From the IMG/VR virus record IMGVR_UViG_3300025421_000003, positions 1 to 40,895 of that record: a DNA stretch of 40,895 bases, one strand, 5' to 3'. The first letter of the stretch is position 1. Each line of letters begins with the position of its first letter. The notes beneath the pieces were generated by a model. That model saw nothing but the letters and a program-made list of their open reading frames with translations, did no database searches and had not been told where the DNA came from. Positions 3,153 through 7,281 of this stretch are shown here, piece after piece. This DNA comes from a virus. The position numbers were made by a program, and so were the translations under genes.

Positions 3153-3329
3153 ATGCTAGACGCCTACACGATGCGCCACCTTAGAGAATGGTCGCTTCGC
3201 AACGTTCGACCAAGTGAATATGACGCATGGATTGATTATGTGCTCGGGGAGCTTGTGGCAGACCCAACGCTAGTGGACCTTGGATGGGCTACTCACCACG
3301 TCGCTTTCGTAACCAAGGTGGACGCGTGA
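3153..3329 (+). CDS. Small protein of unknown function, first gene of rightward module
   Basis: 58 aa from the ATG at 3153 (MLDAYTMRHLREW...). This start was preferred over an in-frame ATG at 3138 because GGGAGA sits 7 nt upstream of 3153, whereas 3138 has no clear ribosome-binding site. The protein is acidic and aromatic-rich (SEYDAWIDYVLGELVADP) and probably helical, with no recognised domain. Its TGA overlaps the GTG start of parB (GTGA), so the two are probably translationally coupled. A role as a small ParB partner or regulator is possible but unsupported. Confidence 0.6.
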   Translation: MLDAYTMRHLREWSLRNVRPSEYDAWIDYVLGELVADPTLVDLGWATHHVAFVTKVDA

Positions 3330-4195
3330 GACTAGAGACCATTCCTACCGCGGCCATCGTCGCGGATAACTACCGCGAGGCGTTCGACCCGGATGCATTG
3401 CGGGAGCTCGCCGACAGTATTGCCGCCAGTGGCCTGGCGATGCCGCCTACCGTGGAACCCCATGGGGACGGCACCTATCTGCTAGTTGATGGGGAGCGTA
3501 GGCTACGCGCGTGCCGGGATATCTTGGGATGGGAGACCATTCCCGCCACGATCCGCGAGGCTATGAGCACCGCGGAGCGTCTCGCGCTGCAACTCACCGC
3601 CAACGTCTCACGCCGCGACACTCTGCCTTATGAAGATGGCGCTGCCATTCTTGCAATGATGGATGGCGGCGAGACCCTAGAGAACGTGGCGCGTAGGATC
3701 GGCAAGGGTGCAAGATGGTGCCGGGATCGTGTCGATATTGCGCGGGGATGCTCCCCGGCTACTTGTGACGCGATTAGGACCGGGATCGTCGGCGTTCGTC
3801 TCGCCGCTACCCTCTCGCGCCTAGACCACAATAGGCAGAGGATCGCGGTCGCCGCGGTAGTGTCCGGGGATCTCACGCCTAGCGAACTAGCGGCCAAGGT
3901 GGACAAGCTGGCCGCCGATCAGTCGGCAGAATCGGTTGAAGCGTTCGCGTTCGCTATCGAAGAATGGACCGAGGCTAAGCGCGTGACCGTGGCACGAGAG
4001 TCTGCCGCCGCCGATACGATGCCGCTCGGACGTACTGAGATAGCGGAGATGCTCGGAGTACGTACCGCCACGGTAGGGCAATGGATCACCCGCGACCTAC
4101 TCCCGCCGCCCGATGGCCGCATCTCCGGGTCGCCAGTCTGGCACCGTGAGACCGTCACCGCGTGGGCTATCGACACGGGAAGGATGGGCGCATGA
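3326..4195 (+). CDS. parB: ParB-like protein with C-terminal winged-helix domain
   Basis: 289 aa. Residues 1-95 form a ParB/Spo0J N-terminal domain, with the signature GERRLRACRDILGW at about 55-68. A central helix-turn-helix region follows (about 100-150, ENVARRIGKGARWCRDRVDIAR). The last 60 residues look like an excisionase/MerR-type winged helix (RTEIAEMLGVRTATVGQW ... SPVWHRETVTAWA). ParB proteins bind parS sites and spread as CTP-dependent clamps; ParB-like phage proteins can also be transcription regulators. No ParA ATPase was found anywhere in the genome, so classical partition is doubtful. The GTG start at 3326 has AAGGTGG upstream and overlaps the preceding stop; an ATG at 3284 lies deep in the upstream gene. 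The extra winged helix is an unusual addition. Confidence 0.85.
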   Translation: MRLETIPTAAIVADNYREAFDPDALRELADSIAASGLAMPPTVEPHGDGTYLLVDGERRLRACRDILGWETIPATIREAMSTAERLALQLTANVSRRDTLPYEDGAAILAMMDGGETLENVARRIGKGARWCRDRVDIARGCSPATCDAIRTGIVGVRLAATLSRLDHNRQRIAVAAVVSGDLTPSELAAKVDKLAADQSAESVEAFAFAIEEWTEAKRVTVARESAAADTMPLGRTEIAEMLGVRTATVGQWITRDLLPPPDGRISGSPVWHRETVTAWAIDTGRMGA

Positions 4196-4377
4196 GTGAA
4201 CGATCCTACCGGGACCGCGGCCAGCTATTTGGGACCGATGGCACGGTCTCATGGATAGAGCCGGATTTATTCTCCGACCCCGTAGAGATTAGCACCGCGG
4301 AGCTATTGACAGACACGCCGCAAGGCATTAGCGTTACAGACGAGACACAACAGAACCCCGACACGGGGAGAGAGTAG
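4192..4377 (+). CDS. Small acidic protein of unknown function
   Basis: 61 aa, starting MSERSYRDRGQLFGTDG at the ATG that overlaps the parB stop (ATGA). It is polar and acidic, with no Cys, no membrane segment and a probably disordered C-terminal half rich in Thr, Asp and Gln. The tight overlap with parB suggests co-expression and possibly a joint function. No family recognised. Confidence 0.6.
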   Translation: MSERSYRDRGQLFGTDGTVSWIEPDLFSDPVEISTAELLTDTPQGISVTDETQQNPDTGRE

Positions 4378-4382
4378 GCAGG

Positions 4383-4553
4383 ATGATGGCAGACACTTAC
4401 ACTTACAAGTTGACGGGGACCGATGCGGACGGGCGCAGGTTCACCAAGCGGGGGCCGGGGAACTACCTGGCAGCGCACAACGTCTACCGCGGGAACTTGT
4501 GGGAATCCGTGAACGGTGGCCCCTGGCGCAAGGTCCGCACCTGGTCTAACTAG
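4383..4553 (+). CDS. Small basic protein of unknown function
   Basis: 56 aa (MMADTYTYKLTGTDADGRRF...). The sequence looks like a small beta-rich fold, with alternating polar and aromatic residues and three Trp near the C-terminus (NLWESVNGGPWRKVRTWSN). AGG directly precedes the first ATG and GAGAGTAGG lies a little further upstream; the second ATG at 4386 may be used instead. Five bases separate it from the previous gene. Its stop codon lies 8 bases before RNA element A. The basic charge is compatible with nucleic-acid binding but this is not shown. Confidence 0.55.
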   Translation: MMADTYTYKLTGTDADGRRFTKRGPGNYLAAHNVYRGNLWESVNGGPWRKVRTWSN

Positions 4554-4561
4554 GTGAGGCG

Positions 4562-4620
4562 TCCCGCCTTGGAGCTTGGCTAGGTTCGATTCCTAGCGCG
4601 GGAGCGGTGCCACCCGGCAC
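4562..4620 (+). ncRNA. Structured RNA element, copy A (tRNA-like T-arm plus hairpin)
   Basis: Stem P1 pairs TCCCGC (4562-4567) with GCGGGA (4598-4603). Inside it, GCTAGG (4579-4584) pairs with CCTAGC (4592-4597) around the 7-nt loop TTCGATT, which is exactly the size and sequence of a tRNA T-loop. An 11-nt linker replaces the D and anticodon arms. After GCG comes a second hairpin GTGCC-ACCC-GGCAC (4607-4620), then CTAGA and a purine-rich ribosome-binding region leading to the ATG at 4646. Copy B at 5307-5369 has the same architecture with compensatory changes. It probably acts as a leader, RNA-processing site or tRNA mimic between genes; the class is not one I recognise. Confidence 0.6.
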
Positions 4621-4645
4621 TAGACAGAGACAGAACGGAGACAGA

Positions 4646-5134
4646 ATGTCAGACAATGATCAGAAGATGACGGAGGACCACGCCGACGATACCGCTAAGG
4701 GGTTGCGCGCGTGGGATGCAATGATGGCCGCATGGCTCGACGCCGGGCAGGACGCCGACGAGACGCGCGCCATTCTGAACCGCGCCCGCCTCGCTGGTGG
4801 TGACGGATGGCAGGCAAGCCGGGACGCGTTGCGCCTGGCCGATGAGTACGACGCGCTAGAGGACGGGGGACCGTGGGACGCGTTCACGTCCGACCTTCTC
4901 GAAGCCTACGCCGAAGCGCGCGTGTCAATGTCGGGGGAGGTCACCGCTACCGCCCTGGTCTACTTGTTGGGGTTCGGTGGTCCGAACGTCCGCGCCCGGT
5001 ACGATGAGGGCGAGACCGTTACCGTGCTGGTGGACTGGTGGGGGTCGCACGCGTCGCGAACGGTCCACGTTCCCGCCTTGGCCGCATGGATGGCCGGGGA
5101 GCTTGACACGCTTGACGCCGGGGTGAACGCATGA
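4646..5134 (+). CDS. Protein of unknown function downstream of RNA element A
   Basis: 162 aa starting MSDNDQKMTEDHADD, with ACGGAGA about 6 nt upstream of the ATG at 4646; an earlier in-frame ATG at 4607 lies inside the RNA element. The N-terminal two-thirds is acidic and helical (AWDAMMAAWLDAGQDADETRAILNR is one such stretch). A C-terminal part (about 105-160) looks beta-rich and carries ARYDEGETVTVLVDWWG. Codon choice is strongly GC-ending, as in the rest of this rightward module. The stop overlaps the start of the next gene (ATGA). No domain recognised. Confidence 0.65.
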   Translation: MSDNDQKMTEDHADDTAKGLRAWDAMMAAWLDAGQDADETRAILNRARLAGGDGWQASRDALRLADEYDALEDGGPWDAFTSDLLEAYAEARVSMSGEVTATALVYLLGFGGPNVRARYDEGETVTVLVDWWGSHASRTVHVPALAAWMAGELDTLDAGVNA

Positions 5135-5301
5135 CCCGCCCGCATTGGGAGCGCGTGACCGTGGCCGGGGGTATTTGGGGGTTGGTATTCTTCGCCGTCG
5201 CCCTTGGGATCGGGGTCTACCCGTTCGCCGCCGACCTTGCCGCCTTGGGAGGGTTCACCCTTGGCGCAACGGTCGCCCACAAGACCACCCGCAAGCGGTA
5301 G
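5131..5301 (+). CDS. Small membrane protein with two hydrophobic segments
   Basis: 56 aa (MTRPHWERVTVAGGIWGLVF...). A hydrophobic helix spans about residues 11-30 and a second covers about 33-48, with a basic C-terminus (HKTTRKR). The start overlaps the previous stop (ATGA). The stop codon lies 5 bases before the P1 stem of RNA element B. It could be a small inner-membrane regulator, an immunity or superinfection-exclusion protein, or a holin-like protein; the sequence does not discriminate. Confidence 0.6.
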   Translation: MTRPHWERVTVAGGIWGLVFFAVALGIGVYPFAADLAALGGFTLGATVAHKTTRKR

Positions 5302-5306
5302 CGGGT

Positions 5307-5369
5307 TCCCCGCCCTGGTGGGCGTGGCCGGGTTCGATTCCTGGCCGGGGAGCGGTGGCAGGTTGCCAC
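5307..5369 (+). ncRNA. Structured RNA element, copy B (tRNA-like T-arm plus hairpin)
   Basis: P1 pairs TCCCC (5307-5311) with GGGGA (5347-5351). The T-arm-like stem pairs GGCCGGG (5326-5332) with CCTGGCC (5340-5346), including one G-U, around the same TTCGATT loop as copy A. Between them a small hairpin GCCC-TGGT-GGGC (5312-5323) makes a three-way junction. A second hairpin GTGGCA-GGT-TGCCAC (5355-5369) follows, then CTAGA, AGGAG and the ATG at 5390. Stem positions differ from copy A in paired fashion (U-A in A versus C-G in B in the T-stem; C-G versus G-C in the second hairpin), which favours a functional RNA over DNA-level repetition. Confidence 0.6.
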
Positions 5370-5389
5370 TAGAACAGGAGCTAGAGACA

Positions 5390-5548
5390 ATGGGATTCAT
5401 GGAGGATCATTTCATCATCGTCAAGGTGGGAGGGGAGAGCGAGACCGACCACGCCGCCAAGCTTGATGGGCCAGACCCGCGCCACGTTCCCGAGATCTGC
5501 CTGACGTGCCGCAACATCGACGCCGAGCGCAAAAGGGTGGAAGCATGA
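5390..5548 (+). CDS. Small protein of unknown function downstream of RNA element B
   Basis: 52 aa (MGFMEDHFIIVKVGGESETD...). AGGAG lies about 10 nt before the ATG at 5390; a second ATG at 5399 is also possible. It contains a single CLTC pair (EICLTCRNIDAERK) near residue 37, too few cysteines for a zinc ribbon alone unless it dimerises. It is coupled to the next gene by an ATGA overlap. Confidence 0.6.
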   Translation: MGFMEDHFIIVKVGGESETDHAAKLDGPDPRHVPEICLTCRNIDAERKRVEA

Positions 5549-5844
5549 CCGAGAATCAGACACGCGCCGACCGTGCCTATCGTCTCGCCCTGGTCTACCG
5601 GCAATGGGTGGGGGCAGAGGAGGATGACCCCGAGACCGTCCTAGCCGACATCCTCGCGGATATGATGCACGAGAACGGGGAGGACTTTGACGCCGCGCTA
5701 GACCGTGCTCGGAGGAACTACGACGCCGAGAGCGGGCCAACGTGCGAGAGCTGCGCCAGCAACATGCACCCCAACGCCGCAAGCGATGCCGTGGCCGTGT
5801 CGGGGTTCGTGTTGTGCGCCGACTGCATCGAGGTGGGAGCATGA
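5545..5844 (+). CDS. Small protein with C-terminal CxxC pairs
   Basis: 99 aa. The N-terminal 65 residues are acidic and helical (LADILADMMHENGEDFDAA), and the C-terminus holds two CxxC motifs (TCESCASN and LCADCIE) about 22 residues apart, a likely zinc-ribbon site. GGGTGGAAGC precedes the ATG at 5545. Overlaps both neighbours by 4 bases. Probably a DNA- or protein-binding accessory protein; function unknown. Confidence 0.65.
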   Translation: MTENQTRADRAYRLALVYRQWVGAEEDDPETVLADILADMMHENGEDFDAALDRARRNYDAESGPTCESCASNMHPNAASDAVAVSGFVLCADCIEVGA

Positions 5845-6005
5845 CCTACCGCACCGTATCCGAGAGGCTACGCGCCCTGGACGCCCGCAACGCCCGCGAG
5901 ATGGGGAACGCGGGACCGCCTACCGCCGACTGGCCGACCGTCGAGGAGAGGAGAGGAGAGCTGCGCCGGCTCAAGCGGTGGGAGGCCGAACCCGATCCCC
6001 ACTAG
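5841..6005 (+). CDS. Small charged protein, last gene of rightward module
   Basis: 54 aa (MTYRTVSERLRALDARNARE...), rich in Arg and Glu and predicted to be mostly helical, with a Pro-rich C-terminus. The ATG at 5841 overlaps the upstream stop and is preceded by GAGGTGGGAGC. The first copy of the 12-bp intergenic repeat begins 2 bases after its stop. No family recognised. Confidence 0.6.
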   Translation: MTYRTVSERLRALDARNAREMGNAGPPTADWPTVEERRGELRRLKRWEAEPDPH

Positions 6006-6040
6006 TCTTGGCACCGCGGAGGTGCTAAGGTGACACCAGT

Positions 6041-6056
6041 TCGGGGGACGCCCCGA
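6041..6056 (+). other. Hairpin TCGGGG-GACG-CCCCGA
   Basis: A perfect 6-bp stem with a 4-nt loop sits immediately upstream of the main terminator hairpin in the 3' region of the rightward transcript. It may stabilise the RNA 3' end or assist termination. Confidence 0.4.
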
Positions 6057-6062
6057 TTAGAG

Positions 6063-6093
6063 AAGCCCCACGGTCCTGTCTCCCGTGGGGCTT
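6063..6093. terminator. Strong intrinsic terminator, probably bidirectional
   Basis: AAGCCCCACGG (6063-6073) pairs perfectly with CCGTGGGGCTT (6083-6093) around a 9-nt loop, an 11-bp GC-rich stem. The rightward strand continues CTTTCTC; the leftward strand continues TTCTCTAAT. It is placed between the converging 3' ends of the rightward module (6005) and the leftward recombination/modification operon (6296), so it can end both. Confidence 0.8.
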
Positions 6094-6139
6094 TCTCGCG
6101 TCTTGGCACCGCGTGGCTTGGCACCGCGTGGGTCTGGCC

Positions 6140-6226
6140 GGGGAACCTTCGGAGATAGTCAATCCATTCCCCGTTTGACGCAGCTTGGCACCGCGCAGGT
6201 TCCCCGTCACCCCCGAAAGGACGGGG
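6140..6226. other. Nested inverted repeats in the convergent region
   Basis: GGGGAACCT (6140-6148) is a perfect inverted partner of AGGTTCCCC (6197-6205), 48 bp apart, enclosing the fourth 12-mer repeat. CCCCGTC (6202-6208) pairs with GACGGGG (6220-6226) as a second hairpin. Neither has a T-tract, so they are not typical terminators; secondary structure or protein binding is possible. No gene is seen in 6006-6295. Confidence 0.4.
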
Positions 6227-6295
6227 CTAGGCCAGAGAATCGTGTGAGAGGCCCCTAGAATCGTCTCTAAGGCTCTCAAATCTTGGTTGTGGGGG

Positions 6296-6649
6296 TTAGC
6301 CCCCGGCGTTACGGTATCCCGCAGCGAGCGTGCGTAGGCCATCCATCCGTGACTGACTGGCTCGCATGGCATCTCGGGCAGCGGTGAGAGCTCCTGCTGC
6401 GATGAGATGGGTGCGGAGTGCATCGGAGGTGTTGAGTGTCGCTCGATCCTCTACATCCCCGACCGTAAACTTGGTGTTGGAGACGGCAAACAGGTCCCGC
6501 TGCTTCATCCTGGCCTTGGCTATCGCGATCTTGTAGTCCGACTCCGCTTCTGCTGCATCGCCGGCGAGGGTAGCGATCTCCTCGGCAAGCTTGCCGATCT
6601 TCCTGCCCTCGGACTCAATAGCCTCGGCAACCTGGTTGTAACTAAGCAT
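6296..6649 (-). CDS. Coiled-coil phage protein of unknown function
   Basis: 117 aa, last gene of the leftward recombination/modification operon. The first 50 residues form a charged coiled coil (AIESEGRKIGKLAEEIATLA), followed by ADSDYKIA-like and DRATLNTSDALRTHL segments and a helical C-terminus. It resembles a family of phage proteins of about this length that accompany recombination genes and have no assigned function. AAGGAG precedes the ATG at 6649, which overlaps the upstream gene by 8 bases. The terminator at 6063-6093 lies downstream. Confidence 0.7.
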   Translation of the reverse strand: MLSYNQVAEAIESEGRKIGKLAEEIATLAGDAAEAESDYKIAIAKARMKQRDLFAVSNTKFTVGDVEDRATLNTSDALRTHLIAAGALTAARDAMRASQSRMDGLRTLAAGYRNAGG

Positions 6650-6980
6650 CGCGCTCCTTCCATAGCCTGATGAAGTCCTCTAGGGTCAGCACGACATACG
6701 ATCCTGCTGCACCCTTGCCCCGACGCTTGGCGACCACGATGCCATAGTCTGCCTTAGCGTTGACTCTCTCGGTCTCGGCCTCTCGCAGCCAACCGGAGAA
6801 GTCCAGGGTCTTGTGATTCTTGCACTCGATGACCAGCTCCGGCCCCATGCCGGTGATGTCGCCTTTGTCCAGCGTCCCGACAAGTGCTCGACGCTCGGCG
6901 TGAGGGTATCCGTTCTCGTTGAGGTAACGGACCACCTCGGTCTCAAAGGCAGTCCCCTTGATCTTGGGTCGGTTAGTCAT
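6642..6980 (-). CDS. PD-(D/E)XK nuclease, Holliday-junction-resolvase-like
   Basis: 112 aa. The motifs fit the Hjc/VSR-like restriction fold: an N-terminal Glu in GTAFETEVVRYLNENGY, GDITGMGPELVIECKNH holding the Asp and the ExK pair (E and K of IECKNH), and a Gln/Glu-containing helix. Length agrees with archaeal-type Hjc-like resolvases. The start ATG at 6980 (MTNRPKIKG) has GGGAG upstream and overlaps the HNH gene by 8 bases; a longer frame to 7049 lies within that gene and is rejected. It probably resolves branched replication or recombination intermediates before packaging. Confidence 0.75.
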   Translation of the reverse strand: MTNRPKIKGTAFETEVVRYLNENGYPHAERRALVGTLDKGDITGMGPELVIECKNHKTLDFSGWLREAETERVNAKADYGIVVAKRRGKGAAGSYVVLTLEDFIRLWKERDA

Positions 6981-7281
6981 CGTTCTCCCAACTGTGCCGT
7001 GCCAACCCCTCACGGTGGGCGTGGTCGGGGAAGTCCTCCACAAGTCCATTATGGAAGTCGCAGAGCAAGACTACGTTATCCATGTCAGTGATGCTGCCGC
7101 CACGGGATCGTTTCAGGATCTCATGGCCGTGGATCTGGCCGTAGCAACGGGTGTCCATGAACATTGGGGCTGAGCAATGCCAGGTGTCGGGAGGTCCGAA
7201 CCGCTCAATCATCGCAGCCTTGCGTTGTGCGTTCTCACGCCGGCGCTTGGAGCTGACTCGGTTGATGGAGCTACGCTTCAT
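6973..7281 (-). CDS. HNH endonuclease
   Basis: 102 aa. A basic N-terminus (MKRSSINRVSSKRRREN) is followed by a Cys pair region (WHCSAPMFMDTRC) and the HNH core HGHEILKRSRGG ... NVVLLCDFHNGLVEDFP, giving the His, Asn and His of the beta-beta-alpha-metal fold plus a further Cys. The ATG at 7281 overlaps the methyltransferase stop (ATGA). In phages such enzymes assist terminase or act as free-standing nucleases; here adjacency to a methyltransferase also suggests a restriction-like or self/non-self role. The function cannot be chosen from sequence alone. Confidence 0.8.
   Translation of the reverse strand: MKRSSINRVSSKRRRENAQRKAAMIERFGPPDTWHCSAPMFMDTRCYGQIHGHEILKRSRGGSITDMDNVVLLCDFHNGLVEDFPDHAHREGLARHSWENDD

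Follow-up and report, generated by a model that had tools for sequence, protein, structure and literature searches.

The window analysed here is the whole of an IMG/VR virus record of 40,895 bases. The virus is probably an actinophage, because its major head protein is ~45% identical to Streptomyces phage counterparts and because a terminase large subunit gene and a ParB-like gene (3284-4195) are present; a BLAST search of the window region against phages returned no match. A small operon lies 3' of the ParB-like gene, and its two large gaps, running from a TAG at 4551-4553 to the ATG at 4646 and from a TAG at 5299-5301 to the ATG at 5390, each hold one copy of a tRNA-like RNA element. The other nearby junctions overlap or nearly abut, with ATGA overlaps at 5131/5134, 5545/5548 and 5841/5844 and almost abutting frames at 4377/4383 in the open reading frame list. 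Thus, each copy heads one group of overlapping genes.

The cores of copy 1 (4562-4603) and copy 2 (5307-5351) share a single layout (Table 1), consisting of a closing stem P1 of 5-6 bp, a single strand with TGG, a stem P2 of 6-7 bp and a 7-nt loop, TTCGATT, followed 3' of P1 by G C G, a second hairpin, a ribosome site and an ATG. On the 3' side P1 and P2 are unbroken and total 12 bp in both copies, and it is the position of the 5'-side break that differs, giving 6+6 bp in copy 1 and 5+7 bp in copy 2. In tRNA, 12 bp separate the T-loop from the acceptor end, and the GG of the D-loop docks into the T-loop; the TGG of the elements stands at the equivalent place. Both copies are tRNA acceptor/T-arm minihelices in which the anticodon arm is absent.

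Table 1. Features of the two element copies and of the gene starts that follow them (window coordinates)
Feature	Position	Strand	Evidence
Copy 1, P1 5' strand TCCCGC, acceptor-stem mimic, pairs with 4598-4603	4562-4567	+	sequence, model R1, homologue covariation
Copy 1, D-loop-like single strand, TGG 4570-4572	4568-4578	+	sequence; xGG common to homologues
Copy 1, T-arm mimic: P2 GCTAGG/CCTAGC (4579-4584/4592-4597), loop TTCGATT 4585-4591	4579-4597	+	sequence, model, fold
Copy 1, P1 3' strand GCGGGA	4598-4603	+	pairing from sequence and model
Copy 1, G73 C74 G75, discriminator and CCA-like positions	4604-4606	+	C74 conserved in class
Copy 1, second hairpin P3 GGTGCC/GGCACT (4606-4611/4616-4621)	4606-4621	+	pair probability 0.89-1.0; class hairpin register
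Ribosome site GGAG 4637-4640 and ATG 4646-4648, gene 4646-5134	4637-4648	+	sequence, ORF list
Copy 2, P1 5' strand TCCCC, pairs with 5347-5351	5307-5311	+	R1 hit, copy 2 outside training set
Copy 2, D-arm-like hairpin GCCC-TGGT-GGGC 5312-5323 (stem 5312-5315/5320-5323, TGG D-loop mimic 5316-5318) and linker	5312-5325	+	minimum free energy (MFE) fold, core z=-3.3
Copy 2, T-arm mimic: P2 GGCCGGG/CCTGGCC (5326-5332/5340-5346), loop TTCGATT 5333-5339	5326-5346	+	sequence, model, fold
Copy 2, P1 3' strand GGGGA 5347-5351 and G73 C74 G75 5352-5354	5347-5354	+	sequence, model
Copy 2, second hairpin P3 GGTGGCA/TGCCACT (5354-5360/5364-5370)	5354-5370	+	MFE fold; compensatory vs copy 1
Ribosome site AGGAG 5376-5380 and ATG 5390-5392, gene 5390-5548	5376-5392	+	sequence, ORF list

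A preliminary description of this locus had listed the shared closing stem, the T-arm stem, the TTCGATT loop, the GCG, the second hairpin and a CTAGA motif, all of which are present in the sequence, and its report that both copies lack an anticodon arm is confirmed. The compensatory stem changes that it noted between the copies are real, and the distance of 5-8 bases from the upstream stop corresponds to TAG codons lying 8 nt (copy 1) and 5 nt (copy 2) before P1. The original observation is right, but it understates the case, since the TGG D-loop mimic, the fixed 12-bp sum on the 3' side, the D-arm-like hairpin of copy 2 and the breadth of the class all go beyond it. Folded as a single sequence, copy 1 is weak (z=-0.1; P1 pair probability ~0.39), and support for its fold is comparative and does not come from single-sequence folding. 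An AGGCG/CGCCUU hairpin at window 4556-4570 competes with P1 of copy 1 and would open it; this hairpin may act as a switch or have arisen by chance.

Comparative evidence comes in part from a covariance model, R1, built from 16 sequences with copy 1 as a training member and copy 2 left out. Within the window R1 matched copy 2 at 5304-5355 (E=4e-5) and its training member, copy 1, at 4559-4607 (E=4.5e-9), and gave no further match below E=0.6. Covariance searching, which the preliminary description had put forward as a test of its claim, recovered many covarying homologues. The shared-core pattern led in IMG/VR to L003, a relative of the window in which the 748-nt spacing is kept, and to several phages that are unrelated yet share this layout, and a pattern combining the TCCC/GGGA closing stem, TGG and the T-loop was found in 85 viral stretches. 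Although this second pattern fixed no more of the T-stem than its closing pair, a T-stem of at least 5 bp was present in 69/76 distinct viral matches (91%) vs 41/84 distinct cellular ones (49%), the lower share being as expected if the cellular matches mix prophages with chance occurrences.

Other scans left the closing stem or its spacing free. The scan AATGGTTN2-10GGTTCGANTCC, in which the closing stem is free, gave at least 101 distinct matches, and 58 of 86 (gap of at least 5, among the matches listed) formed at least 11 pairs, compared with a mean of 4.1 and a maximum of 9 when 3' arms were exchanged between sequences; the set was not chosen for pairing. With the 3' spacing free, 46 of 66 distinct matches fell at the 12-bp spacing, nine at one less and six at one more, and one extra N in the 3' spacing of the pattern, in effect a control for spacing, brought up pieces of tRNA and sequences that are unrelated. 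A geometric search of 3.17 million bases, at loci pre-chosen by pattern, yielded 269 matches against one in reversed and none in shuffled sequence. The 3'-side sum of P1 and P2 in 205 non-redundant elements was 12 bp in 160, 11 bp in 36 and 13 bp in nine, as split by a scoring that leaned to 12 bp. Across 150 model matches the 12 pairs were standard in 99.1% of cases vs 52.1% in shuffled and at most 57% in slid controls, with 809 two-sided changes vs 250 in shuffles; this 150-row alignment was made by fitting to the model, so the exchange of 3' arms, which involves no such fitting, is the cleaner test. These results show a large, virus-enriched RNA class with near-perfect covariation, carried by hundreds of viruses.

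The class looks undescribed, although the idea of tRNA-like cut marks is already known from organelles. The elements carry tRNA-type features, namely a T-arm with a TTCRANT loop and a 12-bp acceptor/T stack, and the copies are accounted for by no Rfam family, tRNA model or ARAGORN call; the preliminary description recognised no described class with this layout. Searching the window with Rfam 15 gave no match above gathering score, a permissive Rfam search of it gave noise only (Plastid-ycf2 at 18.7 bits on the opposite strand, SorX at 14.1 bits), and neither RF00005 nor ARAGORN called a tRNA there. In 20 element-bearing records the tRNA matches fall elsewhere than the elements. One open-access literature library, in which preprints are incompletely covered, yielded no description of the class. 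Carriers include viruses of mycobacteria (isolate records), and matches occur in lactobacilli, enterococci and haloarchaea in genome records, by a pattern scan estimated to be not far above chance, for which reason single cellular matches are left uninterpreted. A model search of 148 genomes of one phylum found matches in three, the seed included. Given the breadth of hosts, a universal host factor fits better than a phage-specific protein.

Placement was assessed for 159 viral elements with enough flanking sequence. A ribosome site (SD) with an ATG open frame lies no more than 150 nt downstream in 45% on the sense strand vs 4% on the antisense, with a median element-to-start distance of 44 nt, and an upstream stop lies within 150 nt in 85% (median 16 nt) as against 59% of random places. 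The window has two copies only; some phages have 7-12, and within one phage all copies lie on one strand. Mycobacteriophage Indlulamithi (L369) carries 12 among genes 40-57, where 11/12 gaps of at least 60 nt contain an element; 11 copies lie 5-13 nt after a stop and one 135 nt after, and for 11 the distance to the annotated start that follows is 35-46 nt. For gene 53 (region L369 6257-6360) the start as annotated, 6274, falls inside the twelfth mimic and is probably wrong, an SD-preceded ATG at L369:6337 being likelier. The gap between Indlulamithi genes 49 and 50 (L369 4255-4330) has, in place of a mimic, a tRNA-like sequence that is longer and includes an anticodon-like arm; ARAGORN and Rfam do not call it as a tRNA. 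A further phage stretch, L123, has seven copies in 4.5 kb, and in the stretches examined of L123, L088 and L071 there are 5-7 copies each, most followed by a palindrome and GAGGAGGAAA. When copy 2 of the window is compared with L003, the element and ribosome site match and the gene changes completely exactly at the ATG; therefore the element is not gene-specific.

The 3' end of the element was examined in 72 elements whose closing stem had not been selected by pattern. C occupies position 74 in 53/72 and G in 0/72, and A occupies position 76 in 46/72, as would be expected were a contact at the tRNA 3' end preserved; C74 is missing from many members in Lactobacillales and Enterococcus. A hairpin starts 2-5 nt after P1 in 28% of cases vs 7% in shuffled flanks. 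There is no clear G bias at position 1, no U-richness at -1 and no conservation of C75, so that the RNase P signature is only partial.

A second setting for the element is the array. In L104/L371, L161, L150, L295 and phage LittleE, elements stand in tandem ~100-200 nt apart, and the sequence between them has a 5-nt period, which passed the period test in all but L150, where the tracts are shorter or looser. According to a 2026 preprint, VIPR is an RNA-guided system whose vrRNAs consist of YNNGG repeats, and some VIPR types have hammerhead-interspersed arrays (PMC13142463). The phrog_4652 neighbour of the tandem elements matches the solved SUSP1 Vipr, PDB 36pp (phmmer E=1.1e-28; profile E=2.2e-42), and both a Vipr RAMP gene and a YNNGG-type repeat RNA are found in L371, L161, L376 (LittleE) and L295. 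Vipr was found in 3/20 element-bearing virus records. The window has no phrog_4652 match and no pentamer tract and Indlulamithi has no Vipr; therefore the operon use of the element is separate from its VIPR use.

Five VIPR loci are without annotation as such: L370 (LittleE JF937101) 5330-7110, L371 4610-5171, L161 5566-6070, L150 776-1258 and L295 1081-1780. They contain the Vipr gene phrog_4652, a second gene, phrog_5926, and mimic-separated pentamer tracts (NNNGG, NNNAG or NAACN), and LittleE genes 33/34 are annotated as hypothetical. Two more loci, L372 3476-3925 and L374 3396-3925, have pentamer tracts upstream of the Vipr gene that share a non-tRNA, gaactggaaacagtcgatagg-like tail and have no mimics. 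The mimic lies between vrRNA tracts in some loci, in the place of hammerheads or other tails elsewhere, and it thus fills a slot held in other arrays by a self-cleaving ribozyme, which is the strongest independent hint that the element is a cut mark. The VIPR preprint itself makes no mention of tRNA, RNase or processing in its main text (PMC13142463).

We consider it rather likely that the element is a minimal tRNA mimic in polycistronic viral RNA, serving as a processing mark for host enzymes at which the RNA would be cleaved. The sequences themselves show the structure, covariation, preferred 12-bp geometry, C74, strand, position, copy number, gene independence and VIPR slot; which enzymes act, where they cut and what then becomes of the RNA we infer. 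The 12-bp geometry is one that RNase P and RNase Z read in tRNA, the D-loop GG mimic and the canonical T-loop also speak for this reading, and cleavage would be by the host RNase P and probably by RNase Z as well. A cut by host RNase P is expected just 5' of P1 (before 4562 in copy 1) and would create the 3' end of the upstream message; a second cut, by RNase Z, may follow position 73 (after 4604 in copy 1). C74 would then be the first nucleotide of the downstream message, which in many phages would carry a hairpin within a few nucleotides of its new 5' end. Hairpins at 5' ends slow mRNA decay, and this one would be expected to slow decay of the downstream message. Within a VIPR array, cutting at such marks would free individual guide RNAs. 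Of the roles suggested in the preliminary description, a leader RNA, a tRNA mimic processed by RNase P/Z or an attenuator, it is the processed mimic that is favoured, with cleavage presumed.

Binding without cutting would be expected to leave much the same sequence signature, and it is conceivable, if rather unlikely, that the element is an uncut structural part of the mRNA that stabilises the message, blocks exonucleases or insulates genes, perhaps by binding a tRNA-handling protein. The hairpins that adjoin the elements and their gene independence agree with this, but a plain stem-loop would suffice without the D-loop GG, T-loop, 12-bp stack and C74, and in VIPR arrays, which call for individual small RNAs, the element stands between guide tracts. 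The short and fairly constant distance to the start codon (the median and the Indlulamithi range given above) might instead suggest a translational or regulatory leader, in which translation of the next gene is tuned by a ribosome, EF-Tu, a synthetase or a tRNA-modifying enzyme that the mimic recruits; we think this improbable, as the anticodon arm is absent, the downstream gene is exchangeable and the copies within VIPR arrays have no intervening gene.

Structured RNA within an operon and before several genes also recalls a transcription attenuator or a nascent-RNA antiterminator of the HK022 put type. Neither copy has a + strand terminator-like site, the fold is that of a tRNA, and put-type sites are found close to promoters and not at each gene junction, which leaves this reading very unlikely. 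We give almost no credence to the suggestion that the elements are tRNA gene debris or attachment sites (tRNA 3' halves in attP), to which the likeness of the T-arm sequence to the 3' part of a tRNA might point: P1 pairs inside the element in many independent copies with its sequence free to vary, there are many copies per phage on a single strand, and RF00005 and ARAGORN make no call. A bacterial Y RNA module of the YrlA type, acting with a Ro/TROVE protein, is just as implausible; YrlA RNAs do carry a tRNA-mimicking module, but the elements are short cis elements between genes, have no Rfam match and are accompanied by a TROVE protein in 0/20 element-bearing virus records, a search outside which any host-encoded Ro would fall. 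Covariation and copy number, the lack of terminator-like sites at the copies and the lack of TROVE in those records together disfavour the attachment-site, attenuator and Y RNA readings.

A processing mark of the kind proposed has counterparts in several known systems. Forner et al. in 2007 reportedly described plant mitochondrial t-elements as tRNA-like marks of mRNA ends. According to a later source, these tRNA-like structures in mRNAs are thought to signal the endonucleolytic processing of mRNA ends (PMC8392254). A tRNA-like fold in mRNA between genes is also present here, but t-elements are organelle-encoded and few, whereas the elements described here are viral and minimal, number many per genome and belong to viruses whose hosts are bacteria and probably also archaea; we do not claim that the two are homologous. 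In mitochondrial polycistronic RNA, intergenic tRNA structures show RNase P and RNase Z where to cut; this punctuation uses real tRNAs, whereas the viral elements are mimics with no anticodon arm or evident amino acid role. The early genes of phage T7 are separated by intergenic structures that are cut by host RNase III, a similar purpose in that polycistronic phage RNA is cut, as we suppose for the elements, but the T7 sites are plain double-stranded hairpins and not tRNA mimics. Truncated tRNA mimics with an acceptor and T-arm are also known as mascRNA (MALAT1), which is released by RNase P and Z, the YrlA Y RNA and the tRNA-like domain of tmRNA, all of which differ from the elements in host and function, and Rfam gives no above-noise match at the copies. 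The start-associated sequences (SAS/ESAS) of Cluster K, marked by a conserved short sequence before start codons, may be distinct; in the elements described here the stem sequences vary freely and it is the fold and loop that are kept.

Whether the class amounts to a virus-wide punctuation code, in which bacterial and archaeal viruses of any gene content would place mimics between genes or VIPR guides for the tRNA-maturation enzymes of the host, is a matter on which our confidence falls a little short of even. If the proposal is true, prokaryote viruses possess a tRNA-punctuation system, not found described in one open-access library, that would explain separate messages from long operons in many phages and would let some VIPR arrays mature by way of host enzymes. 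The class is simple enough for immediate use both as a model for searches and as a compact part for RNA processing.

The window holds one further repeated sequence near the elements. Four exact copies of CTTGGCACCGCG lie in 190 nt 3' of the operon (6007-6195, starting at 6007, 6102, 6117 and 6184), ~2 kb away from the ParB-like gene, and are perhaps operator or partition sites.
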